Of a DNA stretch of 27,738 bases, positions 3 to 27,738 are shown one piece after another. The stretch's first letter is position 1, and every line of letters starts with the position of its first letter. The stretch lies in assembly GCA_016213865.1 (NCBI GenBank), contig JACQZL010000412.1, forward strand, positions 1-27,738, read 5' to 3'. A model generated the notes under the pieces. That model saw nothing but the letters and a program-made list of their open reading frames with translations, was not told the DNA's origin and did no database searches. The DNA comes from Candidatus Rifleibacteriota bacterium (GTDB lineage Bacteria; UBP17; UBA6191; JACPRK01). Made by a program: the position numbers and the translations under genes.

Positions 3-1136
3 TATGTCGAGCCGATCCTCAGCGAGCTGACCGACAGGGCCTATCGGGACCGAGTTACTCGTGACTTCACGATCATCGCCGAGGCCCTGCCCCGGTTCGA
101 GCTGCAGATCGGCAAGAAGTAAACCGAGACCTCCCTTCAGCAACTGGTCGAGAAGCGGTTCCTCCAGGAGCTGCCCAAGGACCCGTGGGGCAACGAGTAC
201 ATCTATAGCTGGTTCTTCGACGAGCTGATCAGCCCGGGACCGAACCGGGTCGTCAACACCTTCGTCCCGGGGCTCCACAACGAGGCGACCGAGTCCGACA
301 GCGACGACAAGATCAAGAACGTGACCCTCACGACCCGCCTCGTCTATCCCGTCAACTCGGGCGGCGTCGGACAGGTCATGCGCGGAGATATCGACGGCGG
401 CGCTTTCCAGGCGCTGGACGAGATCGCCGGCGAGATGCAGGGCGTTGCCATGCTTCCAACGTCCAAGATCATCGTCTACTCGCTCAAGCGCGGCTCGAGC
501 CACGACCTGCGCACGTTCGACTATGCCACGAACGCTCGACAGGACCTGACCACCGACTCGGCCCAGGACCTCAATCCGGTCTGGGCCTCGGACAAGTGCG
601 ACAGCGTGGTCTTCCAGAGCGACCGGGACAACCCCGGCGGCGCGCCCTCGCTCTACCTGATGCAACTGTCCGACAAGAAGATCACGCGGCTGGTCGAGAA
701 GCCTGGCGACGATCCGTCGCCCGGCGTCGACCTCCGCGGAAGAAGGACCGTCTACTTCGCCATGCGCCAGGGCGAACAGTCCTCCATCCAGTCGCTGACC
801 CTTCCCGGCGGCCAGCCGATGGAGGTCGTGTCCGGACGCGGCAACGTGATGCGGCCCAGTCCCTCGCCCTCGGGTATTCATCTGGCCTATCTCGTCCAGG
901 AGGCAACCGGCGCGTCCCTCGAGGTGATCGAGATCAAGACCAAGAAGCTGGTCTTTCGCAAGGACGGCGCGTCGCCGCGGGGCTGGATCGCCTGGTCTCC
1001 GGAGGGCGACAAGTTGGCCTACCAGGTCGAGGACAGGTCGCAGGCCAGAATCGTGCTGGTCCACCCGGTCTCGGGACGGTCCGTGGTCCACCCCAATTTT
1101 CTCATGGCTCTCGGCCGCTTCGCGTGGGTAAAGTAA
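3..1136 (+). CDS. GspG-like pseudopilin fused to TolB-like beta-propeller (5' partial, interrupted by in-frame TAA)
   Basis: The reading frame enters from the left edge. Its first ~100 residues look like the C-terminal half of a GspG/type IV major pseudopilin: an amphipathic helix, then LQQLVEKRFLQELPKDPWGN followed by EYIY, which matches the family's LPKDPWGN hallmark. The N-terminal GFTLxE segment would lie outside the window. The rest (from about position 321) is a TolB/PD40-type propeller with blade motifs such as NPVWASDKCDSVVFQSDRD, MRPSPSPSGIHLAYL and IAWSPEGDKLAYQ, each followed by a strand with basic or polar residues. A TAA at 120-122 breaks the frame between the two halves of the pilin domain, while homology continues on both sides. 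A shorter product from GTG at 321 would be the propeller alone. Family logic suggests an extracytoplasmic, pilus-associated protein. The fusion is seen; the function is inferred. Confidence 0.75.
120..122 (+). other. In-frame TAA inside the pseudopilin domain
   Basis: The codons run GGC AAG AAG TAA ACC GAG ACC TCC. GspG-type proteins usually have G-x-Y-P/T-x-x at this point (as in GRYPT), so a Tyr codon (TAC or TAT) is expected where TAA stands. Pilin homology continues in the same frame without a shift, so this is a point change (mutation or assembly error), not a gene boundary. No ATG, GTG or TTG follows in frame until position 321. Confidence 0.7.
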
Positions 1137-8284: not shown

Positions 8285-8287
8285 CTA
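8285..8287 (-). other. In-frame TAG in the kinase gene
   Basis: On the minus strand the codons run AAG GCC TTC ATT TAG ATG CAC TCC CGG. Kinases usually have an aromatic residue (often Tyr) just before the xHSRGxxHRD segment, so TAG most simply replaces TAC or TAT. An ATG follows directly. It could be a true nonsense mutation or a base-call error. Confidence 0.75.
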
Positions 8288-8650
8288 AATGAAGGCCTTG
8301 CACACGTCCCGGGCTATCGAGAGCGCCTTGGGCACGGGTAGCGGTTCGCCGCTGGCGATCAGCTCGGAGAGCGACGAGCCGTCGATGTACTCCATCGCGT
8401 ACCAGATGTGTTCGTCCTGCTCGCCGCTGTCGAAGAGGCGGACGATGTTGTCGTGGCTGAGCCGGCCGGCGCTGACGATCTCGCGGCGGAACCGTTTGGC
8501 GAGCTGCGGGTCGTCGTCCTCGCCGGACTCCAGCAGCTTGATGGCCACGACCTGGCCCGTCTCTTCGTGGACGCCCTTGTAGACCTCGCCCATTCCGCCG
8601 GCGCCGATGCGATCGACGATCTTGTAGGGCCCCAGGCGTTCGACTAACAT
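8285..8650 (-). CDS. Ser/Thr kinase N-lobe (first part of the interrupted kinase)
   Basis: These 121 residues form the kinase N-lobe: YKIVDRIGAGGMGEVYKG (glycine-rich loop), VVAIKLL (ATP-anchoring Lys), RFRREI (alpha-C Glu) and YAMEYIDGSSL (hinge). The chain ends at KAFI before the in-frame TAG at 8287-8285. Alone it lacks the HRD loop and DFG and cannot be an active kinase. The start is taken at ATG 8650, eleven residues before the glycine-rich region; a GTG at 8698 and its extra residues lack kinase homology and no clear ribosome site favours either. The gene is divergent from the exported-protein gene at 8821 across 170 nt. Confidence 0.8.
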   Translation of the reverse strand: MLVERLGPYKIVDRIGAGGMGEVYKGVHEETGQVVAIKLLESGEDDDPQLAKRFRREIVSAGRLSHDNIVRLFDSGEQDEHIWYAMEYIDGSSLSELIASGEPLPVPKALSIARDVCKAFI

Positions 8651-8820
8651 GGATTCGACGGATCGGTGGCTGAAAAGGTCGCCTGTCCATGATACCACTG
8701 CCCGAGATGCCGCGCTGGATGCGGCCAGAGTTCGGCCGTGACGACCGCGGCGGAGGCCCGATTCACCCGGTCGGGCCAGGACGGCAACCGGCGATCTCCA
8801 TCACCTCAGAAGGACGGCTC

Positions 8821-13977: not shown

Positions 13978-16347
13978 TCACCCCACGACGTGCGGGCGCC
14001 TGGCGGCGATGCCGATCTCCCGCAGAGCACACACGAGTATCTCCGAGAACCGTCGAATCGACCTCCAGCGCCTGCACCGATCGAAACGGATGGCCTTCTC
14101 GACCAGACCGCTCAAGACCCGGGGGATCCTTGGGTCGAGCTCTCCAGGCGGCCTGGGATGCGGGCCTTGGGGCAGGCGGTGCACGAGCAGTTCGTAGAAG
14201 ACCACGCCGAGCGAGTAGAGGTCGGCTCCGACATCGACGCGCTTGGCGTCCAGGACCGACTCCGGGGCCACATAGCCCGGGGTGCCCAGATATCTTCCCG
14301 TGGTCGTGATCCGGCGAACGTCGGGAGCGATGGCCAGGCCGAAGTCGGTCAGCCGGAGCTCTCCGGACTTCGTCATCAAGATATTCTCCGGCTTGATGTC
14401 CCGATGGAGCACGCCCTTCCCGTGGCAGTAGTCGAGGGCCTTGGCAACCTCCAGCACGATGAAGGATGCTTCCTCGACAGTCGGCAGGTAGTCCGGCGCT
14501 CTCTCTTTCTGCCACCTCCGCAGCGACGGACCATCAATGTACTCCATGACGATGAACAGACGCGAGGCGCAGCTCAGGAGCTCGATGACCTGGACGATGT
14601 TCGGGTGCGCCAGTCTCGTCAGGATGTGTCCTTCACGCCGAAAGCGCTCGATCGCTTTCTGGTTGAAGCTGAGCGCAGGAAGGAACTCCTTGATCGCGAC
14701 TCGATAACCATCCCGGAGGCGAACCGCTTCGTAGACGCGCCCCATGGCACCCTCGCCGATGCCTCGCAGCAACCGGTATCCTGGCAATGGAGGGAGCTCG
14801 CCAGGGTCCGGCCCGGCCTCTCCAACGACGGTCGAGTCGCCTGCTTCGGCCCGGGTCTTCCCGTAAGCCGAAGAGTGCAGACGAAAGCTGGTCCAGCACT
14901 GCCCGCACAGGGCCAGGGGTTCGCCGGCGGCCTCGTCCAGGTCGTATCGGGTTGCGCAGACCGGGCAAGCTTGCTGGGCCCCGCTGAAAAGCCGCTCGAC
15001 GGCGTCCCCACTGACCGACTCGGGCCAGTCGCCGCGCGCCAGGGCCTCCACGAAGGTCCACCCGTGGTCCCCCGAGGCGTGCTCTTCGAGCGAGACTGTG
15101 GTCGCGCCCAGACGGGAGCTTACGCCATCGAGGTCCATGCCAAGCTCGTCGCCGGGCCTGAGGGTCCCGGTGCAGGGCATGAGTGCCAGTAGGTGCCGCG
15201 CACGTCCCAAACGTCTCAGAGGCAGCACCCGGCCAGGCAGGGGTTCCGCAGCCCCCGGAGGGTGGAACCGGGCCGCGACCTGGCCCGATGCCCGATCGGC
15301 GCGAGACGCGGGACCGTTCCGAAGCTGTGCGAGGACTCGGACTCGGCCGAAATCCGGGATCTCCAGGATGGTCTCGGAGCATCCGCGAAGCCACGAATGA
15401 GCGTAGGCGGCGAGTCCGCCGAGCACGATCTGTCCAGGCGCTCTGGCGCGCGCTGTCAGCTCGGCCAGGAAGGCCCGGGCCTCAGGAATGGCAGACGGCC
15501 AACCCGGCTGTCCGTCAGCCGCGGCACCGTTCGCCGGCCGAGACCAGACCACGACAGAGGCGTTGTCGTTGGCCAGCACGGAGAGAAGGGACTGGGCGCA
15601 GTCGAGGGCTTCCAGGAGGTCCAGCCCCTTCCAGCAGGCCAGGAGTCCCCGGGAGTCCGCGGCCAACAGTCTTCCTGCAAAGGAACTGACGTGCCGACGG
15701 AGCCTCCAGTGCAATGCACGCAATGCGAGTTGCCCCTCGAGCTCGTCCTGGCCCCCGAGTGGCCTTGCCTCGACCGGACCGATTCCGAGCAGATGAAGCG
15801 CTCCAGGCACGAGCAACGGATTGGAGGAAGCACCCTCCAGAGCTGCAGCAGTTTCTTCCGAAACCGAAGAGCGCAGGCCGGCGGTCGCGGGGGAGACGCG
15901 GGAGGTTTCGGTGGCATCGTCCTGCGGAGACTCGACCCACGTCGTGCTGCCAAGGCTCACCAGACACCTGCCTGCCCGCAGCAGGTCTCCTTCTGCCAGG
16001 TGTCCGCTGGACACCCGCTGCTCGCCCACGAAGCAGCCGTTCTTGCTGCCCAGGTCGTGGAACTCGATCCTGTGAGCCCACGGGACGGGCACCAGCAGCA
16101 CGTGGGAGTCGGACACACAGTCGTCGGCCAGGCGGAGCCGGTTGTGGTTCCCGAATCCCGCTGTGATGGGAAGGCCACCGAGCTCGGAGCAAGTGGAGCC
16201 ACCGGGCCCGCGGGCCTGGAGCCAGAGGATGGGGGCCCTGCAGGGACCGGGTGCGATGAGATTGCACGCCGGGCAATTCAAGGAGGTGACGCTTACGCCT
16301 CTGTCGGGGCGTACCGCCTTGGCACAGTTGGGGCAACACAGGAGCAT
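13978..16347 (-). CDS. Zinc-ribbon / FHA / degenerate cyclase-like / Ser/Thr kinase protein
   Basis: This 789-residue cytoplasmic signalling protein has no membrane helix. In order: zinc ribbon (Cys5/8, Cys25/28); FHA domain at ~60-130, with S79-x-x-H82 and SKNG (101-104), which binds phospho-Thr; a region at ~180-345 that resembles a class III nucleotide cyclase without its metal-binding Asp residues (GRLLAADSRGLLACW, ARAPGQIVLGGLAAY); a second zinc ribbon (CPVC ... CGQC) near 470-500; and a C-terminal Hanks kinase at ~530-785 with GEGAMGRVYEA, VAIKEF, LHRDIKPEN, TDFGLA and GTPGYVAPE, all intact. Placing the kinase at the C-terminus after the sensors is less common than the reverse. The start ATG 16347 has only a weak ribosome site. 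The cyclase-like call is by pattern and uncertain; the FHA and kinase calls are firm. Confidence 0.9.
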   Translation of the reverse strand: MLLCCPNCAKAVRPDRGVSVTSLNCPACNLIAPGPCRAPILWLQARGPGGSTCSELGGLPITAGFGNHNRLRLADDCVSDSHVLLVPVPWAHRIEFHDLGSKNGCFVGEQRVSSGHLAEGDLLRAGRCLVSLGSTTWVESPQDDATETSRVSPATAGLRSSVSEETAAALEGASSNPLLVPGALHLLGIGPVEARPLGGQDELEGQLALRALHWRLRRHVSSFAGRLLAADSRGLLACWKGLDLLEALDCAQSLLSVLANDNASVVVWSRPANGAAADGQPGWPSAIPEARAFLAELTARARAPGQIVLGGLAAYAHSWLRGCSETILEIPDFGRVRVLAQLRNGPASRADRASGQVAARFHPPGAAEPLPGRVLPLRRLGRARHLLALMPCTGTLRPGDELGMDLDGVSSRLGATTVSLEEHASGDHGWTFVEALARGDWPESVSGDAVERLFSGAQQACPVCATRYDLDEAAGEPLALCGQCWTSFRLHSSAYGKTRAEAGDSTVVGEAGPDPGELPPLPGYRLLRGIGEGAMGRVYEAVRLRDGYRVAIKEFLPALSFNQKAIERFRREGHILTRLAHPNIVQVIELLSCASRLFIVMEYIDGPSLRRWQKERAPDYLPTVEEASFIVLEVAKALDYCHGKGVLHRDIKPENILMTKSGELRLTDFGLAIAPDVRRITTTGRYLGTPGYVAPESVLDAKRVDVGADLYSLGVVFYELLVHRLPQGPHPRPPGELDPRIPRVLSGLVEKAIRFDRCRRWRSIRRFSEILVCALREIGIAARRPHVVG

Positions 16348-16511: not shown

Positions 16512-19130
16512 CTACCTGGGCGGGGCCACGCCGGCACCGAGCACCTGCACGCTGCCCGACAGGAACACCACCCCGCGTTCCTTGCGGTCGACGATGACCC
16601 CGTCAGCCTGAATTGCCGACCCAACGCCCAGGGGCTCCGAGAACGGGACCTCTGACTTCACGACGAAGAAGTGACCGCCACTTTCGGCCAGCAGGCGATT
16701 TCGAGAGGGGTTGATTTCGCGTACGGTACCGTTCCACGCGACCTGCTTTCCGCGGTAGCGCCCAGCATCGGGGGCGATGGCCACGGTTGCGAGCGTGAGC
16801 TTCGACGTCTCCGCCGGCCCGGGGCCCATCGCCCCGCGCGCCAGGATGATGACCGTAACCAGTGCCAGCGCGGCGGAGGCAATGAGCCAGACGTAGGCCT
16901 TCGCGTTCTCGATCGCCCTCGAGTAGAGCGGTGGCGGCGCCGGCGGCAGGGCGGTCGCCTTCGAGGATCGGCTCGCATGCGGTGCGGCTGGCCGCGGCCT
17001 CGCCGCCGGCATGAGGGCCCCGCCGGACAAGTCCGCGCCAGGGGTGGTCGGGCCGCCGGCGACGGCACCCGCGGGCGGGGCCTCACCGCGGGTGCGGAGC
17101 TCCTCGAGCGCCTTGCGGGTGCGTCCGCAGAGCTGCGCGAGGAAGCCGCTGGGCACCTGGCCAGAGTGGAACAGGCCCATGACCTTCTTGCCAAGAGCAG
17201 TGAGAGTCTGGTTGCGCAACGCCAGCGTTTGCTTGGGATCGGCACCGTGGTCCAGCATGGTCCCCAGACCCCGCAACTCCTCGATTTCGGCGGCCAGGCC
17301 GAGGTCTGGCAGTCCCCCCGATTGGGCCAGCTTGAAAACCGACATCCCCAGGCGCTCGTGGATCCGACGCTCTTCGTCCGCGGCGTTGGCGGCCTGCAAG
17401 AGGACCGCGGCGCGCTGGCGCACCGGCTCGGCGGTGTCATTCATCGCCAGCTCGATCCTGAGCCGCGCATGTTCGTCGTCGAGCTTCGCCAGCAACTCGA
17501 GTGCCTCGAGCCGGACCTGCGCATCGCGCTGGTTCATCTTGGCGAAGAGCCCGGCCAGTTGATCTTCCAGATAGGCCGCGGCCAGCTCTCCCTGCCGGTA
17601 TCGCTCGAAGAGCTCTTTGGCCGCCGGGTTGGAGGCACCCAGCGCATCCAGGACCCCGAGTGCCTTCAACTGGATCGAAGGCTCGTCCCGCTTCAGCGCC
17701 AGCTCCAAGATCCCCAGGCAGTCGTGGGTCCCCACGTTCTTCAGACCATACAGGGCGCTCTCGGCGACCTTGACGTCGGGCGAGGCGATCATGGCCTCGA
17801 GGGCCGCGAGGGCCCTACGAGTATCCCGTTTGGCAAACGCAATGGCGAGGTTGGCCTGGACCCGGGGGCTCGCGTCATCCTTGACGGCATCCACCAAGGC
17901 CAGGGCCTCGTCACTTCCAAAGGCACAGAGACCCTCGACGGCGTTGGCTCGAACCCGCGCATCCGCGGACTTGAGGTACTCGCCCAGCGCCGGGAGATCC
18001 TCGGGTGTCCCCAGCCGGCCCAGGGCTTTGGCGAGGGTCGCCTGCACGAAGAGATTGCTCTCGGTCTGGCTCAGGGCCCTGAGTCGGGACAGCACGATCT
18101 CCCGGGGGAAAGCGTCGGCGTTCTGAAGAGCGTGGATGCGACGCTCGGGCTCCAGGGCCGAGAGGTGGTCGTCGAAGTCGGCCACGGTCTCCAGTTCGGG
18201 GAAGTCCTTGGTGAGGGGAGTTCGCTGGGTGGCCAGGAGTGCCCGGACGTTTCGCAGGTCGTCCGGGGCAGCGTCCGCCGGCCCGGTCAGGGAAGGCGTG
18301 GACGGTGCTTCGAGCCCGTGGTTCGGTGCGAGGGTCAGCCTTTCCTGGACGTGCCTGCAAGCCTCCTTTAGCTTCCGACTCAGGGGTGAGCCTTCACCTT
18401 CCGCCAGCGCGAGTTCTTCGAGGTCGGCGAGGCACCACGGAGCCGCAATCGTGCGCATGACATAGACGGCGCTGTCCTTCATCCACAAGAGACCTGTGGC
18501 GATCATCCCATGCAGCATGAGCTGCACCTTGTCCGGCGATCGCTTCGAGAAGAAAATGGCCACATTGCTGCGCACCCGGTTGTCCCGATCCATGGCCAAC
18601 AAGCCGACAGCCTCGAAGATGGAAGCGTCCTCGAAAGGGGTCAGGGCCTCGACAGCGTTGGCCCTCACCCGGGCATCCGGATGGTGCAGCATCGAGAGCA
18701 TCCGTGGGATCGCCGCAGGCTTTCCCTGAGAGCCGACGGCCTTCACCAACGTGGCGATGACCCGGACATCGGTCTCGGCGTCCAGGCAGTGGACCAGCGA
18801 GCCCAACAGCTCCGGGTCGTTTCGGTCGTAGCAGGCCAGCGCTCCTCGCAGGCGCACCCGGGCATCCGGGCTCGTCAGCATCGCCAACACCTGCTGGACA
18901 CCCTCGGAAGAGGGCGCTGACTGCCGTTGCTGCACCGAAGCTCTCTGCAACTGCGTGATCGCTCGGCGGGCGAAGTACCTGACGGACACCTCCGGGTCCT
19001 TGACCATCTTCTCGAGATGGGGGAGCACCGACGGATCCTCGAGTTGCGCCAGCCACATGACGGCACACTTCCGGACGTCCTCGAGCTCGCTCGAGAGGTC
19101 CAAGACGAGCTCCTGAATTCTACGGTCCAT
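16512..19130 (-). CDS. HEAT-repeat protein with membrane helix and C-terminal OB-like domain
   Basis: The protein has 872 residues from ATG 19130, which lies inside the end of the kinase/FGE gene (11-nt overlap). The N-terminal ~600 residues are PBS-lyase-type HEAT repeats in two blocks, e.g. DARVRANAVEALTPFED and DARVRANAVEGLCAFGS, with SVRYFARRAITQLQ and RVQANLAIAFAKRD helices. Then come a coiled or helical stretch, an Ala/Pro linker, one membrane helix (VWLIASAALALVTVIILA, ~747-769) and ~100 outer residues resembling an OB fold (GKQVAWNGTVREINPSRN, GSAIQADGVIVDR, VVFLSGSVQVLG). HEAT arrays bind proteins, so it may connect the kinase of the same operon to an envelope assembly. A longer open frame to 19589 overlaps the upstream gene and is rejected. 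The operon link is seen; the role is inferred. Confidence 0.88.
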   Translation of the reverse strand: MDRRIQELVLDLSSELEDVRKCAVMWLAQLEDPSVLPHLEKMVKDPEVSVRYFARRAITQLQRASVQQRQSAPSSEGVQQVLAMLTSPDARVRLRGALACYDRNDPELLGSLVHCLDAETDVRVIATLVKAVGSQGKPAAIPRMLSMLHHPDARVRANAVEALTPFEDASIFEAVGLLAMDRDNRVRSNVAIFFSKRSPDKVQLMLHGMIATGLLWMKDSAVYVMRTIAAPWCLADLEELALAEGEGSPLSRKLKEACRHVQERLTLAPNHGLEAPSTPSLTGPADAAPDDLRNVRALLATQRTPLTKDFPELETVADFDDHLSALEPERRIHALQNADAFPREIVLSRLRALSQTESNLFVQATLAKALGRLGTPEDLPALGEYLKSADARVRANAVEGLCAFGSDEALALVDAVKDDASPRVQANLAIAFAKRDTRRALAALEAMIASPDVKVAESALYGLKNVGTHDCLGILELALKRDEPSIQLKALGVLDALGASNPAAKELFERYRQGELAAAYLEDQLAGLFAKMNQRDAQVRLEALELLAKLDDEHARLRIELAMNDTAEPVRQRAAVLLQAANAADEERRIHERLGMSVFKLAQSGGLPDLGLAAEIEELRGLGTMLDHGADPKQTLALRNQTLTALGKKVMGLFHSGQVPSGFLAQLCGRTRKALEELRTRGEAPPAGAVAGGPTTPGADLSGGALMPAARPRPAAPHASRSSKATALPPAPPPLYSRAIENAKAYVWLIASAALALVTVIILARGAMGPGPAETSKLTLATVAIAPDAGRYRGKQVAWNGTVREINPSRNRLLAESGGHFFVVKSEVPFSEPLGVGSAIQADGVIVDRKERGVVFLSGSVQVLGAGVAPPR

Positions 19131-21039
19131 GGGGACCCCCTGCAGCCAAGGTCGAGTCCATGACAGTTCGAAACCCGACATCATCCGCCGAGAAAGACGG
19201 AGGGTGGCCCAGCCGTCGGGTGCCCGAGAGCGTCGCTCCCTGGCTGCGGAAACTGCCTCCGCGCACGACGCGCTTGGTGCCACCGGCGGGTCCCGGGGGG
19301 GAGACGGGCGGCGCTTCTCGATAATAGTCGCTCTGATACCAGTCGGCGCACCACTCCCACACGTTGCCTGCCAGATCGAGGCACCCTGCGGCCGAGGCTC
19401 CGGCAAGCCTCGAGCCCACACGCTCGGGGGCCCGGGCCAGGTGCGGCCCCGAGCCAAACACGGCCAGCTCGGGCGACGGCTTCGCGTGGCCCCAGGGATA
19501 CTGCCGGCCGTCGCTGCCTCTGGCTGCCTTCTCCCATTCGGCTTCGGTCGGCAGGCGCCGGCCGACCCACGTGGCGTAGGCGACTGCATCCGACCACGAG
19601 ACTCCCGTGGCGGGCAGGGTGGCCATGACGCTGTCTGCCACGGAATCAGCGAGCGCGTACTGCCCCGACGGCACGTAGGATGCGGCTGTCAGAAAGACCT
19701 GGAAGCGGGCCCGGGTGACCTCTGTCTCTTCGATGTAGTAATCGGGCAGGCAGACCTCGTGAGGCGGGCCCTCATCGGGCTCGAGGTCGGAGCCCATCAG
19801 GAACTCTCCCGCCGGAACCAGCACCAGCACGGCCCCATCCTTCTCGTGACGGAACCGTTTGGCCCCCTTCGCGTGGTCACCCAGCAGGTGCAACGACGCG
19901 GGCACGGGAGGGTGAGAGAGGTCGCAGACGGCGCCAGGGCCCCGCACGGCCCAAGCGCCACCGAGCAGCAGGACAGCCAGCGTGCCGCCGGCCAGGACCT
20001 TGCGGTGGCCGGGCCTCGACGGGCCGCCGGCGGGTGGCAGTGCCGGCACTCTCCCCGTTTCGAGCGGCGCAGCGAGGAAGGCGACTGGTGGAGCGGCATC
20101 GGCAGGTTGAGGGGGGGGCGTGTAGCTCGGGCCGGAGCCGAAGCACTCCATCAACTCCCGGCGAAAGTCGGCGGCGTCCGTAAAGCGCTGGTCGCGCGCC
20201 TTTCGAAGCGACTTCAGCACGGCGTCCTCGAGCCGCACGGGTATCTCGGGCCGATGAGTGCGCAAGGGCACCGGCGCCGAGTGGACGTGGTGGTACAGGA
20301 TGCCCGCGACCGTGTCGGCCTGGAATGGGAGTTGACCGGCGAGCATCTCGTAGAGCAGGACGCCAACGGAGTAGACGTCGGTGCGACCGTCGACTTTCTC
20401 GCCCTGGACTTGCTCGGGGCTCATGTACGTTGGCGTTCCCACGATGATCCCGGTGCGCGTCAATGCTGGACCCGGGGCCGCCTGCACCCCGGCCAGCCCG
20501 AAGTCGCCGAGCTTGATCGCCCCGTCCGGCGTGACGAAGATGTTCTCGGGCTTGACGTCACGGTGGTGAATCCCCTGGGCGTGGGCGGCCGACAATCCCT
20601 CGAGGACGGCGCAGGCAATCTGGACAGCCCGCTGCACCGACGGCTGCTGGCAGCTCAGATGCTCTCGCAGCGTGGCTCCCTCGACATATTCGCAGACGAG
20701 GTACGGCAGGCCGTTGTCCTCGCCCGCATCATGGACGGCCACGACGCCCGGGTGGTTCAACTTCGAGAGCAGTTTTCCCTCGACGCGGAACCGCGCGGTG
20801 TCCGACGGGTCGAGGGCCCGCAGCGTCTTGATGGCAACCTGCCGCTCGAGTGCCACTTGGATCCCGAGAAACACCTGTCCCATCCCGCCCTCGCCCAGCT
20901 TGCGCAGGATCCGGTAACGCGTCAAGAAGGCTTCCGAGAAAGGCGAATCGACAGGCGGCTCCGGGGCTTTGCCGCCGGGCGCGGGAGACCCGCGTGGCAT
21001 TGACACGGTCTGGCGCGGTTTCAGCTCCTCGAATCCCAC
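19120..21039 (-). CDS. Transmembrane Ser/Thr kinase with extracytoplasmic FGE-sulfatase (SUMF1) domain, Pkn1-like
   Basis: The protein has 639 residues. The kinase spans ~43-310 with GEGGMGQVF, AIK (Lys71), HHRDVKPEN (159-167), GDFGLA (DFG 179-181) and GTPTYMSPE (201-209), all intact. A Pro/Ala linker and one membrane helix (AGGTLAVLLLGGAWAV, ~350) precede an outer FGE/SUMF1-fold domain: AGEFLMGSD, TEVTRARFQVFL, GVSWSDAVAYATWVGRRLPT, EAEWEKAARG, YPWG, DLAGNVWEW, VVRGGSF and GFRTV. The Cys pair used by true formylglycine-generating enzymes after RGGS is absent (RSQGATLSGTRR), so sensing or sugar/protein binding is likelier than catalysis. GTG 21039 follows GGGAGG with 8-nt spacing, 16 nt after the GspJ-like gene. 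It overlaps the HEAT gene by 11 nt, so both are co-made. Confidence 0.93.
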   Translation of the reverse strand: MGFEELKPRQTVSMPRGSPAPGGKAPEPPVDSPFSEAFLTRYRILRKLGEGGMGQVFLGIQVALERQVAIKTLRALDPSDTARFRVEGKLLSKLNHPGVVAVHDAGEDNGLPYLVCEYVEGATLREHLSCQQPSVQRAVQIACAVLEGLSAAHAQGIHHRDVKPENIFVTPDGAIKLGDFGLAGVQAAPGPALTRTGIIVGTPTYMSPEQVQGEKVDGRTDVYSVGVLLYEMLAGQLPFQADTVAGILYHHVHSAPVPLRTHRPEIPVRLEDAVLKSLRKARDQRFTDAADFRRELMECFGSGPSYTPPPQPADAAPPVAFLAAPLETGRVPALPPAGGPSRPGHRKVLAGGTLAVLLLGGAWAVRGPGAVCDLSHPPVPASLHLLGDHAKGAKRFRHEKDGAVLVLVPAGEFLMGSDLEPDEGPPHEVCLPDYYIEETEVTRARFQVFLTAASYVPSGQYALADSVADSVMATLPATGVSWSDAVAYATWVGRRLPTEAEWEKAARGSDGRQYPWGHAKPSPELAVFGSGPHLARAPERVGSRLAGASAAGCLDLAGNVWEWCADWYQSDYYREAPPVSPPGPAGGTKRVVRGGSFRSQGATLSGTRRLGHPPSFSADDVGFRTVMDSTLAAGGPHGP

Positions 21040-21055: not shown

Positions 21056-21655
21056 TCAATGCCACGGGATGTTCGTCGGATCGTCGGGGCCGTTCTTTTC
21101 GAGGCTGCGCAGGAAGACCGACGTGACCATGTTGGCCGTGGCAGTCGTCGCCTCGGTGCTGCTCGCGGCCAGGTCCAGATTGACGCGACTGGGCGCGCGA
21201 CCCGGGCCGGCCGCGGCTGTCGTGACCCGAAACCAGTGGACGTGCTCGATGAGGGCTTCCTCTTCTTCGCAGTCGCTCGGGTTCACGTTGGACCGCCACA
21301 GGGTCCGGGTGCCGGAGACAGTGCCGTCGTCGCGAGTGTAGTAGAACACCAACTGTCCCCTGGCATTGACGAAGCCGACGCCGCAGGACGATTCCTGCCC
21401 AGGCTCGGGGTAGATGAGACGGGTCCCCTCCTGCAGTTCGTAGGTCAGTCGCTTGAGCTTGAGGCGCAGCTCACGAACGGACGCGGACTCCTTTGCCACG
21501 CGGTCGGCGGGCCGCGGCTGCCCCAGCATCAGGTAGACGGCCGTGGCCAGAACGAACGAGATCGCCAGCGACAGCATCAACTCCACGAGCGTGAAGCCCG
21601 AATCCGGCGGGGTGCGTTTCCGAGAGCACCAAGCGCGTCTGAGTGCAGCCGTCAT
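21056..21655 (-). CDS. GspJ/PilW-like minor pseudopilin
   Basis: The product has 199 residues. A basic leader ends in DSG, then the prepilin N-terminus FTLVELMLSLAISFVLATAV with Glu at +5. A prepilin peptidase would cut G|F and the helix would insert in the inner membrane. The globular part contains a long helix (RELRLKLKRLTYELQEGTRL) and beta strands (GVGFVNARGQLVFYYT, LIEHVHWFRVTT, SVFLRSL), the pattern of the J-type pseudopilin that joins the tip complex in type II secretion. ATG 21655 overlaps the stop of the GspI-like gene (ATGA), the coupling usual for tip pilins; a longer frame to 21742 is not needed. Assignment to J rather than PilW rests on its position after an I-type gene. Confidence 0.82.
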   Translation of the reverse strand: MTAALRRAWCSRKRTPPDSGFTLVELMLSLAISFVLATAVYLMLGQPRPADRVAKESASVRELRLKLKRLTYELQEGTRLIYPEPGQESSCGVGFVNARGQLVFYYTRDDGTVSGTRTLWRSNVNPSDCEEEEALIEHVHWFRVTTAAAGPGRAPSRVNLDLAASSTEATTATANMVTSVFLRSLEKNGPDDPTNIPWH

Positions 21656-22311
21656 GGGAGGTTCTCCGGCGGCAGGTACTGATGGTGCGTGAGCATGGTG
21701 AAGAACCGTTCCTGGCGCTCTTCCTGGGTGCGGTCCTGCCACGAGACAGTGACCAGGACTTCCGCCATGTCGAGCTCATCGCGCCCGTCTTCGTCCGAAT
21801 CGATGAGGTTCTCGGGAACACTCCACGAGACCTCGAGCGTGACGCGGTAGCTGGCCAGGTCCTGGAACAGGCCAGGGTTGGAGCTGGCCGTGAGCCCGTG
21901 AAGGGGAGTCCCCCGCAAGTTCGCGAAGTCGACGAAGTACTGCGAGCAGTCACCCGAGGTAACCTCGGTGACTTTCTGGCCTTCCTCGCGCAGCTTCGTG
22001 AAGAAGTCGCGGAAGCGGTTTCGGGGGTTGCGGAGCTTGCGGCGCCGTTCCTCGGGGCTGTCGTTGAGCGTGAAGAAACGAGTATCGCCGTCATACAGGC
22101 GATAGCGGACGTTCTCCAGGATGGCCTGGCCAATCATCGTTGCGTGGGTTGCTTCGCGGGTCTTGCCGAAGCCGTGGAAGACGGAGCTGAAGTTGGCGAC
22201 GATGGGCACGAGCGCGGCCGTGAGGACGAGGCTGGCGATGAGGACTTCCAGGAGCGTGAACCCGCACCTTGCCGCGATGGGTCCGAAAGCCGAAGGCGTC
22301 CTGGTTCTCAT
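21652..22311 (-). CDS. GspI/PilV-like minor pseudopilin
   Basis: The product has 219 residues. The leader ends in CG and the prepilin motif is FTLLEVLIASLVLTAALVPI, with Glu at +5 after cleavage. The segment after the helix (GKTREATHATMIGQAILENV) is typical of the I/V class, where a conserved polar helix follows the transmembrane part. The rest has beta strands (RVTLEVSWSV, MAEVLVTVSWQDRT) and an acidic loop (DSDEDGRDELD) that could bind calcium, as major and minor pseudopilins often do. It overlaps the OB-like gene upstream and the GspJ-like gene downstream, both by ATGA. The fold class is clear; I versus V is decided by gene order. Confidence 0.82.
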   Translation of the reverse strand: MRTRTPSAFGPIAARCGFTLLEVLIASLVLTAALVPIVANFSSVFHGFGKTREATHATMIGQAILENVRYRLYDGDTRFFTLNDSPEERRRKLRNPRNRFRDFFTKLREEGQKVTEVTSGDCSQYFVDFANLRGTPLHGLTASSNPGLFQDLASYRVTLEVSWSVPENLIDSDEDGRDELDMAEVLVTVSWQDRTQEERQERFFTMLTHHQYLPPENLP

Positions 22312-22961
22312 GGTTCATCCCCTTCGAGGAGATGTTCCAGGCGCGGGGCCGACGTGGCCATCTGCGGCGCGGCACTCTCGAGGCTGTCGAGGGTAGGGGG
22401 ACCCATCGGCGGTGGGTCGGCCCCACCGGACTGGGTCGAGGCGCGGGGGGCCGCAGCCAGGAGCTTGTATGTGCCGTCCAGGTACCGGGCGCCGAACCGG
22501 CTTCGGCCCACCACTCGACCCGTTATCTCCACTCGGGCCCCCTCCATCAGCGCCGTGGACGAGGTTTCGCCGGTCTCGGAGGGGGGCGCGGCGCCCACGG
22601 TTTGCGATATGGGCTCGCGCGGTTGAGGCAACGCCTGGGATTCGCACCGCAGAGAGAAGGTCTCGCCTTCCGAGTTGAGCACGAGCCAACTCCGGTCGGG
22701 CGCCACTGCGGTCACGATCCCGACCCTTCGCACCTGCGCGGACGCGTCCTCTTCGTCCCGCACGAGCTCGGTCAGGCCCGGTGCTGGAACCGCAACGGCC
22801 TCCACGCTGCGCCGACGGGCCCAGTGCTCCCTTGCGGTCGTCGATCCGACGAGCAGCCCCGCGAGCAAGAAGGAGACAACTGCCAGGGTCTTGGGCGAGA
22901 GCCGCCCGTGCCACCCGCCGTCTCGCCCAGGGTTGTCCGAGTATGCAGCCCGCCAGGACAT
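22308..22961 (-). CDS. Membrane-anchored OB-like protein, first gene of the pseudopilin operon
   Basis: The product has 217 residues. A polar N-terminus is followed by one membrane helix (TLAVVSFLLAGLLVG). The outer part has the strand pattern of an OB-type barrel (VRRVGIVTAVAPDRSWLVLN, GETFSLRC, GARVEITGRVVGR, YLDGTYKLLAAA) and a Pro/Ser-rich tail. No standard type II secretion component matches; topology is like GspC (one helix, outer domain) but the sequence is not. ATG 22961 is chosen because the sigma70-like promoter at 23029-23057 lies upstream of it and inside the longer open frame to 23078. The end overlaps the GspI-like gene by ATGA, so it is translated with the pilins and may be a pilus-assembly partner. 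Family not recognised. Confidence 0.72.
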   Translation of the reverse strand: MSWRAAYSDNPGRDGGWHGRLSPKTLAVVSFLLAGLLVGSTTAREHWARRRSVEAVAVPAPGLTELVRDEEDASAQVRRVGIVTAVAPDRSWLVLNSEGETFSLRCESQALPQPREPISQTVGAAPPSETGETSSTALMEGARVEITGRVVGRSRFGARYLDGTYKLLAAAPRASTQSGGADPPPMGPPTLDSLESAAPQMATSAPRLEHLLEGDEP

Positions 22962-23028
22962 GATCTTGCCCCATTTCGATGGAGGACCCCATCCGCCGTT
23001 GGCCAAGCCGGCCTTCGCAATCGCCCCA

Positions 23029-23057
23029 AACCTACCACGACCGCCTGGAGCTGTCAA
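23029..23057 (-). promoter_or_regulatory. Sigma70-like promoter for the minus-strand pseudopilin/kinase operon
   Basis: Read on the minus strand: TTGACA (23057-23052), 17-nt spacer, TAGGTT (23034-23029). The -35 box is a perfect consensus; the -10 is weaker. It would give a leader of about 60 nt before ATG 22961. Confidence 0.5.
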
Positions 23058-23107
23058 ATCGGGTGCGCACTCCGGCAAATCCCGGGTTCATTGGAGGAAA
23101 CAGGCTC

Positions 23108-23136
23108 TTGCCTCGTACGCCGCGGCAGGCTACACT
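23108..23136 (+). promoter_or_regulatory. Sigma70-like promoter for the plus-strand propeller-pilin operon
   Basis: TTGCCT (23108-23113), 17-nt spacer, TACACT (23131-23136), about 40 nt before ATG 23176. Each box has 4 of 6 consensus bases. It faces away from the promoter at 23029-23057, so the two operons may be controlled together. Confidence 0.45.
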
Positions 23137-23175
23137 GACCGGCGCTCAGGGAGAGTTCTGATTGGGGCGACCATC

Positions 23176-25482
23176 ATGGGTCTGTCTGCGGCAACAGGGC
23201 CAACTCCACGACGCGGGTTCGCATACGCGCTCGTGCTGATGGCGCTTTTCGTGCTGTCTGGCGCGCTCGCTGTCTCGTACACCCAGCTCATCGACGATTT
23301 GAGGGGAACGAAGCGGCTATCCGACGACACGACTCACCTGTACCTGGCCGAAGCCATCATGGCCAAGGCGATCAACCGCCTCAAAAAGGTGCCCTGGAGC
23401 CAGCGATGGTACGCGCAGCCGGGGGCCGTCCCCAGTGACCGCGGGACTTATCGCGACGCGGATTACTACCTGTCCGTCCAGGACGTCGCTGACACGACCG
23501 GCACGGCGTTGCGCGATCAGACAGACATCTTCCTGAAGGTGAACTACCTGGACCAGAGCCTCAACTACCTCGAGCGCGTCCGCGTGCGCGTGCCCAGTGA
23601 GACCCGCCCGACCCAGGCCAACATCCGGCGGATGATGCGCACTTCGGAAAACGTCGAGACGCGCTCCGGCAAGTCAATGGCCCTGGTCCGTCTCGAGCGC
23701 GAAGAGAGCGAGCGCGAGGCACGGCGGGCCGCGACCAACGTGCTGGGTCGTTTCGCCAGGCACCTGCTGGCTCAGGGGTTGCCGCCGGCGCGGGTGGTCG
23801 AGGTGCTGAGGAGGGGAGACGGCCGTCCTGCCGTCAGCATTGCATGGTGGCGGCAGTTGCTCGAGGGCGCCCAGTTCCTGCTGCGTCCGCGAGCGGCCTA
23901 CGCAGGGATCGGACAGGACGAATCGGCGCGCGAGGAGAACCGCGCCGAGCGCAACGTCCTTTCTCGCGAGGCGCTGGACCCCGCGTTTCCACGAGACGCC
24001 GCCAGCGTCGCCGTGCGCCTGCGCACCACGAGCTACGCGACCCAGGTCGAGCTGGAGAAGACGATCCTCGAGAAGATTCTGGAGGGTGACAGGATCCTCT
24101 TTGCCGTGCCGCCTGCGGGCGGGGCGCTTCCAGCCGCGATTGCCGCGTATGAGGAGGCCCTGCGCGCCGCGGAGAGCCAGGACGCGGTGAACCGCGTCGA
24201 GACGATTCCCCGCTGCCTCTACCGACTGGCCGCGGCCAAGACCGCGCAGGCGGAAGGGCACGTCTACGACCTGTTCGATTCGAGAGGCAACTTGCAGACA
24301 CGGCTGTCGGGGCCTCCGAGCCGCACCGATCTCCTGGATGAAGCCGGCGCACTCTACGCCCGGATCGTCCGCGACCACCCGAACTCCGTCGAGGCGCCGC
24401 ACGCTTACATCCCGTGGGCGTGGACCGAGATGAAGAAGGTCCCGGGTACGAACGCCGGAGCGTGGAACGCTGCCCGGTCTCGGGCCTACGTTCATCTGGA
24501 GGAACTGCGCCGCAAGTACCCGCTCTATCACCTCTGGGACGAGGAGGCGATCGTCTCCGTCCCCGGTTCGCCCGGAGCGCTTGCTCCCATCTCCGACGAG
24601 CTCGTCTACTACGTCGAGACCCAGATCAAGCCTCGCATGCTCTGGACTCGCTCGGACCCATACCTCGGCAGCGATGCCTACGGCAACTATCGGGTCACCT
24701 TCATCGTCGTCGGTGACCCCGACTACGGGAACGTCCGCCCCCTCTTCCCGCCGTTTGCTCTCACCAAGGCCCCGACCGTCTCTCCCGACGGCTCGCGGAT
24801 TGCCTTCCTGGCCTTCGTCGAGAAGCGATGGGACCTCTTCCTGGCCAACTCGGATGGGTCCGACGTGCGCCAGCTCACACGTGACCTGGTCGAGGTGGAC
24901 AACCCCAGCTTCTCGCCGACCGGGCGGGAGATCACCTTCAATTCCCGGCGCTCGGGCACCTGGGCGATCTACTCGATCGGGGCCGACGGCGGCGGACTGC
25001 GCCGGATTGCCGCCATCAGCGGCGACTGCGGCCGCGCACCGATCTCTCCGAACGGACAGTCCATCGCGTTTGCCAGCGCCGGTTCCAGTGGCCGCGTGGC
25101 CATCTGGGTGGGGAACGCGGACGGCTCCAACCTCCGACAATTGACGGACCCGTCTTCCGGCATCAACGACTACGACCCGTCGTGGTCGCCCGACGGGACA
25201 GAGCTGTTGTTCAGTCGCGAGCCCGGCTACCCGTGCCAGATCTGGTTGATGAGGGCCGACGGTTCGGGGCAGCACGCTCTGACCAACCGCAGCGCGCACC
25301 CCGAGCAGAGTTACTCGGCCTCGTGGTCCCCGGACGGCGGCAAGATAGCGATGGTCAACGGGGAGCGCTGGTACGGATGGCCTGCGCAGATGAACCGTGA
25401 CGGGACCGGGTTTCGTAGGTGTTCCTCCGAATCGATGGGGCGTTGTGGTCGGGCCCCCATCTTTGCCGCCGGAGCTCCATAG
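23176..25482 (+). CDS. GspK/PilX-like pseudopilin with C-terminal TolB-like beta-propeller
   Basis: The product has 768 residues. The N-terminus reads RRG then FAYALVLMALFVLSGALAVS, a prepilin-type helix with Leu instead of Glu at +5, as GspK proteins have. A helix (THLYLAEAIMAKAINRLKK) follows, then ~500 residues of mixed, largely helical sequence with a TPR-like part (GALYARIVRDHPNSVEA). The C-terminal ~235 residues are TolB/PD40 blades: PTVSPDGSRIAFLAF, NPSFSPTGREITFNSRRSG, APISPNGQSIAFASAG, DPSWSPDGTELLFSRE and ASWSPDGGKIAMV. In type II secretion GspK caps the tip with GspI and GspJ, and those two are encoded divergently 200 nt away. ATG 23176 is the start nearest the prepilin motif, with the promoter boxes upstream; the longer open frame is promoter and antisense DNA. 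The propeller may bind protein or polysaccharide outside; that is inference. Confidence 0.87.
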   Translation: MGLSAATGPTPRRGFAYALVLMALFVLSGALAVSYTQLIDDLRGTKRLSDDTTHLYLAEAIMAKAINRLKKVPWSQRWYAQPGAVPSDRGTYRDADYYLSVQDVADTTGTALRDQTDIFLKVNYLDQSLNYLERVRVRVPSETRPTQANIRRMMRTSENVETRSGKSMALVRLEREESEREARRAATNVLGRFARHLLAQGLPPARVVEVLRRGDGRPAVSIAWWRQLLEGAQFLLRPRAAYAGIGQDESAREENRAERNVLSREALDPAFPRDAASVAVRLRTTSYATQVELEKTILEKILEGDRILFAVPPAGGALPAAIAAYEEALRAAESQDAVNRVETIPRCLYRLAAAKTAQAEGHVYDLFDSRGNLQTRLSGPPSRTDLLDEAGALYARIVRDHPNSVEAPHAYIPWAWTEMKKVPGTNAGAWNAARSRAYVHLEELRRKYPLYHLWDEEAIVSVPGSPGALAPISDELVYYVETQIKPRMLWTRSDPYLGSDAYGNYRVTFIVVGDPDYGNVRPLFPPFALTKAPTVSPDGSRIAFLAFVEKRWDLFLANSDGSDVRQLTRDLVEVDNPSFSPTGREITFNSRRSGTWAIYSIGADGGGLRRIAAISGDCGRAPISPNGQSIAFASAGSSGRVAIWVGNADGSNLRQLTDPSSGINDYDPSWSPDGTELLFSREPGYPCQIWLMRADGSGQHALTNRSAHPEQSYSASWSPDGGKIAMVNGERWYGWPAQMNRDGTGFRRCSSESMGRCGRAPIFAAGAP

Positions 25483-25498: not shown

Positions 25499-26212
25499 AT
25501 GCCGCGGTGTTCCCTGGCCATCTTCGGTTACCGCCAGCCCGGTGCCCTTCGCACAGTCGTGTCTGGCCTTCTTCTCCTGCTATTCGCGTCGGCTCTCGGT
25601 TGCGGCCGTCGGGAGGCCCAGCCGGCCGCGGAGCTCACTGCCGTCACCGGTTCCGTGAACGTCAACTCGCAGCCGGCCCAGGTGGGCCGGTCGCTGGTCC
25701 TTGGAGACCTGATCGAACTGGCCCCCGGCAGCCGCGGTCAGGTCGTCTTCACGGATGGAGCCCGAGTCGAGCTCCTTGGCGAGGCCGGCCAGGGGACCAG
25801 TCTGAAACTGGCCTATCCGGTCACGGGTGCCCTGGCAACCACGCTGGAGCTTGGTCGCGGGACCCTCTCCATGTTCGTCCCAAAGGGGGTAGCAGGTCAG
25901 ACACGCTACGAGGTCGAGACGGCCAACTGCACGACCTCCATCGAGGGGACTGTCTTCCTCGTTTCCGCCCTGGGGGCCAAAACCCGCGTGCTCGTGGCGG
26001 ACGGGGGTGTGAAAGTGGCGAACCCGCTTGGAGCCGTGACGGTCTCGAAAGGCTTCGAGGCCGTCGCCCGTGATGGAGAGGCCCCTGTCCTCCTTGCAGA
26101 ACCGTACGATGTCCGGGAGGGCCCCGGGAAGGTCGTCGAGGACCTGCTGGAGAATTCCAAACACCTTCGGTCGCTTCGCGATCGCGACTTTCGCCCGCGG
26201 GGGGGGCAGTGA
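25499..26212 (+). CDS. FecR-domain lipoprotein
   Basis: The product has 237 residues. ATG 25499 follows GGCAGGTG. A signal peptide (VVSGLLLLLFASALGCG) ends at Cys in an ALGC box, a probable but not perfect lipobox. The mature protein has the FecR signature, VTGSVNVNS then VGRSLVLGDLIELAPGSRGQ, VVFTDGARVELLG, and later ETANCTTSIEGTVFLV, where the usual text is (T)PxAxxxxRGTxF. FecR domains occur in sigma-regulator proteins and in envelope or sensor proteins; no sigma factor is present here, so a surface or periplasmic structural role is likelier. It lies 16 nt after the propeller-pilin gene and overlaps the CHASE2 gene by GTGA, so the three form an operon. Confidence 0.86.
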   Translation: MPRCSLAIFGYRQPGALRTVVSGLLLLLFASALGCGRREAQPAAELTAVTGSVNVNSQPAQVGRSLVLGDLIELAPGSRGQVVFTDGARVELLGEAGQGTSLKLAYPVTGALATTLELGRGTLSMFVPKGVAGQTRYEVETANCTTSIEGTVFLVSALGAKTRVLVADGGVKVANPLGAVTVSKGFEAVARDGEAPVLLAEPYDVREGPGKVVEDLLENSKHLRSLRDRDFRPRGGQ

Positions 26213-27738
26213 GGCCCGACTGGCGCCGACTGCTCCTTGGTGCGGTCACGGGCACGGTGGTGGCGGTCATCTACTCGGCCGTACCGCGCTCCGGCGTGCT
26301 CGACAGGCTGGAAACCGATCGACTCGTGCGCCTGATGCGGCGCACTCCGCGAGCCCACGCTTCCCCGGTCGTCATCGTGGGGCTGGACGAACCGGCGATG
26401 CGGTCGATGAGCACGACCAGCGTGCCCGGTTTCGACCGGGCCGCCTTCAGCCGGCTCGTGAAGATGATCGCAGCCGCCAGGCCGAGAGTGCTCGGCGTGG
26501 ATGTTCTGTTCGCCAAACCTCGTGCGCCGGATGGAGACCGCCTGCTCGGTGAGGCGCTTGCAGGGGCTCCCTCGCCGGTCGTGGCCGCGGCGCTCGAGTT
26601 CGAGTCCGCTGCCGGCGAGCCCAGACTGGTCGAGCCGATGGCCGAGCTTTCGTCGCGCGGGCTCGCGTTCGGCGTGGCCAACACTGCCCCGGACGACGAC
26701 GGCGTCGTCCGCAGGGTCGCGCTCCTGCGCTACCACCAGGGCAACCGCTTGCCGCACCTCGGTCTCGAACTGGCCCGACGCTATCTTGGAAGCGACCTGA
26801 CGCGGGTCACGGAATCCGGGCTCTGGCTGCGCAGTCCTCAGCCCGGCTGCGACCGGTTCGTACCGATCGACGCGGCGACCGGCTCGACCTTGCTTCCCTA
26901 CGGTGGGCCAGATCGGTTCAGTGTGCTCGACGCGTCGAAGCTCCTGGGCAACAACACCCTGGAGCCCGGTGCCGCCGAGATGCTTCAAGGGCGCATCGTG
27001 CTCGTGGGGGCCACGGGCGGCGCCCAGGGGGATCTCCACCTCACGCCCTATGGTACCGCCACCGGTCGCGGCGGGTTGGTGCCGGGGGTCGTCGTGCTGG
27101 CCCACATCGTCGACGGGATCGTCAGCGATCGCCTGCTGGCCCAGCCCGGTCCGGGCGTTCGCTCCATCGTTGGCGGAGGTGCGATTGTCCTCGGGACCGC
27201 GTTGCTCTCGCTTTGCCCGCCGTTCTGGGCGGTTGGGCTCCTGGTCCTTCTGGGGTCGCTGACCGCGATCGGGACCATGATCGCGTTTGACCACGGTCTG
27301 GCAATCGGCGGCCTGACCTTCGCCCTGGCCCTGCTCGCAGGCCAGTTCTCGGTGCTGACAGCGCGGCTGGCGTGGCAGCACGGCGAGACCCTTGCGAGAC
27401 CCGACGGTTCGAGTGCCTCGTGGCTCGCTCGCACCGGGCGGACTTTGCTCGAGTCCGCGACAGCTCCGGAGTCGCTGGCGGTGACCGTGGTCGTCCTCGA
27501 GTCGACCGAACTGACACGGCGCGCGCTGGCCTGGGACGCCAGAAGGCAGGCCGAAGCGGTCGCGTGGTTCCTGGAGGCGGTCGAGGGTCTTTCGCAAGCC
27601 GGTGCATGGGTCCAGCAGCGAGGCCCGTTCCGGGTTCTGGCGATGTTCCACGGGACGGGTCCGGAGAACGAGTCGCCGCGAGCCAGCCCGGCTGACCCGG
27701 CTCGCGCCGGGTCAGAGCCGGCAGGGACGCCGGCCCTA
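26209..27738 (+). CDS. CHASE2 sensor with degenerate class III cyclase-like domain (3' partial)
   Basis: GTG 26209 overlaps the FecR gene stop (GTGA). The 510 residues in the window start with a membrane helix (LLLGAVTGTVVAVIYSA), then a CHASE2-type outer domain: SPVVIVGLDEPAMRSMS, RPRVLGVDVLFAKP, RGLAFGVANTAPDDDGVVRR, GRIVLVGATGG and VVVLAHIVDGIV. Then come three membrane helices near residues 325-390. The cytoplasmic part resembles a class III adenylyl/guanylyl cyclase N-terminus (LAVTVVVLESTELTRR, FLEAVEGLSQAGAWVQQRG, FRVLAMFHG), but the first metal Asp is Glu and the second is missing, so it is probably inactive or a binding domain. The gene runs off the right edge, so the C-terminus is unknown. 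CHASE2 proteins sense external or periplasmic signals. Confidence 0.87.
   Translation, partial: MRPDWRRLLLGAVTGTVVAVIYSAVPRSGVLDRLETDRLVRLMRRTPRAHASPVVIVGLDEPAMRSMSTTSVPGFDRAAFSRLVKMIAAARPRVLGVDVLFAKPRAPDGDRLLGEALAGAPSPVVAAALEFESAAGEPRLVEPMAELSSRGLAFGVANTAPDDDGVVRRVALLRYHQGNRLPHLGLELARRYLGSDLTRVTESGLWLRSPQPGCDRFVPIDAATGSTLLPYGGPDRFSVLDASKLLGNNTLEPGAAEMLQGRIVLVGATGGAQGDLHLTPYGTATGRGGLVPGVVVLAHIVDGIVSDRLLAQPGPGVRSIVGGGAIVLGTALLSLCPPFWAVGLLVLLGSLTAIGTMIAFDHGLAIGGLTFALALLAGQFSVLTARLAWQHGETLARPDGSSASWLARTGRTLLESATAPESLAVTVVVLESTELTRRALAWDARRQAEAVAWFLEAVEGLSQAGAWVQQRGPFRVLAMFHGTGPENESPRASPADPARAGSEPAGTPAL

Follow-up and report, generated by a model that had tools for sequence, protein, structure and literature searches.

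The window, which here means the whole 27,738-nucleotide (nt) stretch of Candidatus Rifleibacteriota DNA analyzed (contig JACQZL010000412.1, 67% GC), encodes a protein, hereafter K, in which a pilin-like N-terminal module appears to be followed by a helical middle part and a C-terminal propeller of the TolB/PD40 type. The propeller end is firmly supported. That K is a modular tip-cap pilin presenting this propeller is a reading for which we hold the evidence to be about evenly balanced. Two genes for minor pseudopilins (I and J) adjoin K on the opposite strand with one gene between, and a second fusion, of a GspG-like part with a TolB-like propeller, is found in the same window (Table 1).

Domain layout and propeller of K

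K can be divided into a leader with cleavage site (residues 1-14), a pilin module (15 to about 140), a helical region (147 to about 300), TPR-like helices (about 315-450) and a TolB-like propeller (about 500-750), with the order of helices and strands taken from weak AlphaFold models. The C-terminal third matches PD40 in Pfam at an expect value (E) of 6e-23. The TolB model TIGR02800 aligns in two stretches with 160.8 bits, below its equivalog cut-off of 343.15, and solved TolB chains in the PDB are found by sequence at a best E of 4.7e-21. Five blade motifs are located at residues 535, 579, 623, 670 and 717, whereas 1000 shuffles of K gave 0.117 motifs on average and never more than 2. The PD40 match and the motif count bear out the sequence-only reading, a preliminary annotation made without database searches, which had placed a TolB-like propeller of about five blades at the end of K. 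TolB has six blades, and the sixth blade of K would be built from residues near 500 together with the C-terminus.

The full-length model of K points the same way, with a propeller that Foldseek recognizes as TolB (E 1.5e-10), although its mean predicted local distance difference test (pLDDT) score is only 40. Up to E 1, Pfam lists only PD40, THOC3, DPPIV_N and Pectate_lyase22 for K; neither a PilY1-type propeller domain nor the TolB N-terminal domain is among them, and the propeller is an extra domain of a PD40/TolB-like kind that is not pilus-specific. The middle of K may be called TPR-like as a reading of its helices and sequence. A tRNA-Ala predicted by ARAGORN at 23959-24035 (-) lies inside the coding frame of K on the opposite strand and was taken as false.

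The pilin-like start of K

The N-terminus of K, MGLSAATGPTPRRG|FAYALVLMALF, consists of a short basic leader, a Gly and then a hydrophobic helix. The cleavage pattern RRG|F, read by eye and in the hhalign register with GspK, places Leu instead of Glu at position 5 (the Glu5, or E5, of other pilins). No pilin model in Pfam or NCBIfam, N_methyl included, matches K. Searching residues 1-488 against Pfam up to E 10 returned only ENT (E 0.14) and TPR_6 (E 0.8, the sole TPR match), with no match to PilX_N (PF14341) or, by sequence only, to the GspK alpha-domain (PF03934).

Profile comparison with hhalign was performed using residues 1-300 of K, as a query of two sequences, against reference sets of 12 GspK and 14 PilX frames, among which L096 and L121 are below the family cut-offs and a few, L087, L089 and L118 for instance, have doubtful starts. 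PilX was matched with a probability of 82% (E 1.1e-5) over residues 5-71 and GspK with 57% (E 1.1e-4) over residues 11-122 only; the corresponding values for full-length K are 75% and 41%. For a background of 20 families from type II secretion system (T2SS) loci, the probability had a median of 0.4%. By eye, the top six of these are all pseudopilins, with a GspI-like set as the only high one (52%), followed by GspK (12%) and by families at 7.8, 2.2, 1.4 and 1.2%. From these comparisons K seems closest to pilins, and among pilins to PilX, with a signal to which the helix by itself contributes part. In the best AlphaFold model of residues 1-155, a helix of 59 residues (11-69) precedes a four-stranded sheet (91-94, 97-105, 111-124 and 127-138), the order expected for a pilin; this model, with a pLDDT of 54, and that of full-length K are too weak to settle the fold, and the fold searches do not settle it either.

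The claims made earlier for this end of the protein fared unevenly. A pilin start is favored by the RRG|F pattern and by the PilX and GspK comparisons, but no pilin family of Pfam or NCBIfam confirms it, and the structure prediction that recognized the propeller leaves the N-terminal fold unsettled. The description of K as GspK-like needs correction, as no GspK alpha-domain was found and the profile comparison favors PilX over GspK; membership in the 'K subunit of type II secretion' family is not supported. By the tests made, K is a member of neither PilX nor PilY1.

Relatives of K and reality of the fusion

Searches for relatives of K gave 11 matches among 7,991 scored candidates and 2 among 7,994, one in each being the window itself. 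Among the candidates scored, just one further full-length relative was identified, P0002 (707 amino acids (aa), on another contig), which shares 33% identity over 97% of K and 40% in the first 488 residues; as called, it starts at K residue 15-16, with the leader outside the called frame. The tail of P0002 was matched to an alignment of nine PD40 propellers with 95.1% probability over 100 columns; controls reached at most 1.0% (20 shuffles) and 0.6% (pieces taken from the N-terminal part of P0002). When P0002 was searched as a single sequence, no family was found in NCBIfam up to E 0.1 and no match in the PDB, THOC3 at E 0.0042 being the only propeller signal. Because the blade motif of K occurs just twice in P0002 and once or not at all in each of P0014-P0017 (relatives of the second fusion, described below), the propellers of these proteins were assigned by profile comparison and not by the motif.

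Judged from their sequences, K and P0002 would both carry the pilin helix, the middle part and the propeller. The in-frame stops in two other genes of the window could be taken to mean that a pilin gene and a TolB-type gene were misjoined in the assembly of K as well. However, P0002, on a different contig and 33% identical, shows this order too and has a propeller tail, and third-position GC is 0.81 across the whole open frame of K. Since P0002 keeps the architecture of K, the fusion is not regarded as an accident of assembly, and we find a misjoining scarcely credible.

The family of K may be larger than the candidates scored show. Scanning genome contigs with K left none of 46 stretches confirmed, and K without its propeller was found at E 1e-4 in 0 of 195 and 0 of 294 genomes, which is no proof of absence; no relative of K was found on viral contigs. 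Plasmids yielded 69 records that match K, none over more than 80% of it, and the 20 plasmid matches listed cover the propeller side only (23-34% of K).

The adjoining pseudopilins

Both I and J pass TIGR02532, the model of the prepilin N-terminus. J is also above the Pfam cut-off for N_methyl (Table 1), and I reaches E 1.4e-3 and 18.5 bits, below the cut-off of 21.2. Signals for the individual subunits are weak and below their cut-offs, with gspJ at E 1e-4 for J and XpsI (E 7.9e-6) and gspI (E 4e-4) for I. Glu5 is present in both when their starts are read by eye. These matches and motifs agree with the earlier assignment of I- and J-like pseudopilins on one strand. The distance of 200 nt that it gave between K and this pair needs correction: a gap of 214 nt separates K from the gene for a small transmembrane (TM) protein with an OB-like domain, and the starts of I and K are 864 nt apart with that gene inside.

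Tip complexes capped by a subunit without Glu5 are described in PMC10191384, and the set of I and J with Glu5 and K without it matches their composition as given there.

A GspG-propeller fusion in the same window

The gene at 123-1136 (+), which the sequence-only reading had passed over as a fusion, encodes a GspG signature (...LPKDPWGNEYIYSW...) and then a TolB-like propeller. It matches T2SSG at E 1.4e-3 over profile positions 57-107, below the cut-off, gspG at E 2.2e-3 and TolB with 90 bits; upstream of an in-frame TAA (120-122) its frame goes on (3-119) and leaves the contig. Four full-length relatives, P0014-P0017 (408-415 aa, 47-69% identity), are intact. Against gspG (TIGR01710) they give E 4.7e-7 to 4.3e-6 and 26.8-29.9 bits, with the cut-off of 88.85 not reached, and their tails are matched to PD40 propellers with 91-97% in profile comparison. 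The profile of the family finds both TolB (E 1.1e-8) and GspG 5wda (E 4.7e-6) in the PDB.

The four relatives were aligned with 16 GspG from named loci under two MAFFT settings, and in all four the Glu5 column holds Lys; retention of Glu5 in this family was considered and dropped after this alignment. They have an acidic leader, and the canonical cleavage site is absent in the GspG-aligned register. An alternative register read by eye, x|VSILE, has Glu at +5 in 4/4 and Gly at -1 only in P0017. The family thus seems, from these alignments, to have lost both the cleavage site and Glu5. Because of the Lys at the Glu5 position, the lack of a canonical site and the acidic leader, the GspG-propeller protein is more likely a pilin-derived, fixed periplasmic anchor than a filament subunit.

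When genome contigs were scanned with the alignment of this family, at least 589 stretches matched and 226 were confirmed; in each of the best 80 of these 226 (80/80), the top segment falls within the GspG part, and none extends past query residue 148 of 408. In 12 genomes from which GspG-part loci came, P0014 matches 18 places, in the GspG part or the propeller part and in no case across both. At E 1e-10, P0014 was found in 0/294, 0/119 and 0/199 (partly the same genomes), 0/28 and 0/194, which is no proof of absence, and the single matches in 1/146 and 1/193 are one and the same plain GspG, encoded in a frame of 194 aa.

The presence of a GspG-derived protein in the same window, together with the weak gspI and gspJ matches of I and J, would be in line with K being the tip of a real T2SS pseudopilus, whose propeller recruits a secreted protein before its passage through the secretin; contact of substrates with GspK or the tip has been proposed (PMC7541494 and PMC4471445). 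On the other hand, the GspK alpha-domain was not detected and the pilin module of K is nearer to PilX, gspC-F were not found among the window genes scanned, and the GspG-derived protein is without Glu5. We consider such a substrate selector unlikely.

Gene neighborhood

Table 1. Features of the window around K and the second propeller fusion.
Feature	Position	Strand	Basis
HEAT-repeat protein with TM and small C-terminal beta domain (by eye)	16512..19130	-	HEAT_2 E 6.2e-33; start likely
Ser/Thr kinase with C-terminal FGE-sulfatase-type domain	19120..21039	-	Pkinase E 3.2e-49, FGE-sulfatase E 1.2e-52
J-type minor pseudopilin, 199 aa, G|FTLVE	21056..21655	-	Pfam N_methyl E 1.4e-6
I-type minor pseudopilin, 219 aa, G|FTLLE	21652..22311	-	TIGR02532 above cut-off
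One-TM protein, small beta domain (OB-like by eye), 217 aa	22308..22961	-	ATG at 22961
K-like modular pilin (putative), 768 aa	23176..25482	+	PD40, TolB profile, hhalign pilin class
FecR-domain protein, lipoprotein-like leader (by eye)	25499..26212	+	FecR E 3.2e-8
CHASE2 membrane sensor, running off window	26209..27738	+	CHASE2 E 8e-40
GspG-like C-terminal part fused to TolB-like propeller	123..1136	+	T2SSG, gspG, TolB profiles

The TM/OB-like gene is divergent from K and ends in a 4-nt overlap with the start of I; an overlap of 4 nt also joins the stop of I and the start of J. J is separated by 16 nt from the downstream kinase gene (19120..21039), the stop of which is overlapped by the HEAT gene, and J and the kinase gene, as well as the kinase and HEAT genes, are likely to belong to the same operon. 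On the opposite strand, a gap of 16 nt lies between K and the FecR gene, likely in one operon with it, and the CHASE2 start overlaps the FecR stop by 4 nt.

The TM/OB-like protein has GspM as its only NCBIfam signal (E 0.062), no Pfam match above cut-off and no useful match in the PDB; by eye, the C-terminus of the HEAT protein (TM and small beta domain), encoded in the same operon, is similar to it. The CHASE2 protein seems by eye to end in a decayed class III cyclase domain, which Pfam does not list up to E 1. Three Ser/Thr kinase genes are present in the 27.7-kb window, at 13978-16347 (-), 19120-21039 (-) and 6317-8698 (-); an FHA domain is present in one of them and the FGE-sulfatase domain in another. 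An in-frame TAG (8285-8287) divides the gene at 6317-8698 into two pieces, of which the first covers the kinase profile to about position 110 and the second from 114 on. Two genes on this contig are therefore interrupted (TAG at 8285-8287, TAA at 120-122), for which decay, sequencing error or a more unusual cause are possible explanations; the K gene also ends in TAG.

Proposed mechanism

We propose to place K, as a minor pilin of modular build, in the tip-cap class, which lacks Glu5 as in PilX and GspK. With the helical TPR-like part and the TolB-like propeller placed behind the pilin module, the propeller would be shown at the filament tip, where it could bind a ligand such as a partner within the envelope, a polymer on a surface or a secreted cargo, and K would act like a PilX-class cap and a PilY1 propeller in one chain. 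We infer the cleavage of K, its assembly with I and J, its tip position, its ligand and the machine to which it would belong, and likewise the gripping role that the sequence-only reading attached to an I-J-K assembly. The FecR lipoprotein, the CHASE2 sensor and the Ser/Thr kinase encoded nearby suggest that use of such a filament might be regulated.

The same neighbors could serve a pilin-derived, membrane-anchored sensor, in which the helix of K does no more than anchor the protein, something in the periplasm is sensed by the propeller and the TPR-like part, which feed FecR/CHASE2 and the kinase, and no filament is formed. Three points favor this sensor and weigh against a tip-cap pilin: K immediately precedes the FecR and CHASE2 genes with the close spacing given above; the proteins of the GspG-propeller family retain helix and head of GspG, yet have an acidic leader and Lys for Glu5 in 4/4; and the window genes that were scanned include no machine gene (prepilin peptidase, assembly ATPase, platform or secretin). 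However, the leader of K is still basic and its Gly-Phe cleavage site is retained, and the adjoining I and J have kept canonical sites with Glu5; a sensor of this kind is possible, if somewhat unlikely.

The tip-cap reading of K can be extended to a pseudopilus-like machine with propeller-headed subunits, namely a Glu5-less cap pilin topped by its TolB-type propeller and, next to or underneath this pilin, the GspG-derived propeller protein, under Ser/Thr-kinase and FecR/CHASE2 control and with the functions of PilX and PilY1 in one protein. The apparent loss of Glu5 in the GspG-propeller family shifts the balance slightly against it, from an already low probability to one a little lower, and we regard this machine as distinctly unlikely.

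Comparison with known systems

Pilins carrying grafted modules are widespread, with more than 1,200 proteins and 264 architectures according to PMC8179133. K resembles the modular type IV pilins described there, such as PilB and PilC of S. sanguinis, which combine an N-terminal pilin module with a grafted ligand-binding module thought to be tip-exposed; it differs in that its module would be a TolB-like propeller behind a helical TPR-like part, on a pilin of the Glu5-less cap class. The tip of type IVa pili, as presented in PMC7541494, also joins a Glu5-less cap pilin (PilX/PilK) with a beta-propeller at the tip (PilY1, or PilC). PilY1, however, is a separate non-pilin protein with its own domain, whereas K would unite pilin and propeller, here of TolB/PD40 type, in one chain. 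GspK, as described in PMC8179133 and PMC6211770, is likewise a Glu5-less minor pseudopilin alongside I and J, but its alpha-domain is inserted in the pilin sheet (PMC8179133), while the extra modules of K come after the predicted sheet. With TolB of the Tol-Pal system K shares the propeller blades; unlike TolB, it is far below the family cut-off, has no TolB N-terminal domain listed and bears a pilin-type membrane anchor.

Modular pilins are thus known and diverse, and in the titles and text passages covered, those of PMC8179133 included but not its list of the 264 individual architectures, no description was found of a TolB/PD40 propeller on a pilin, a combination that appears new. If K is such a protein, it would represent a single-chain version of the type IVa tip made from cap pilin and PilY1, and propellers would have been recruited to pilins more than once, in this case out of the TolB family. 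Whether a tip pilin itself presents a propeller, and which ligand its head binds, become directly testable, and the GspG-propeller family could also be exploited to study how a filament subunit is turned into a fixed periplasmic protein.

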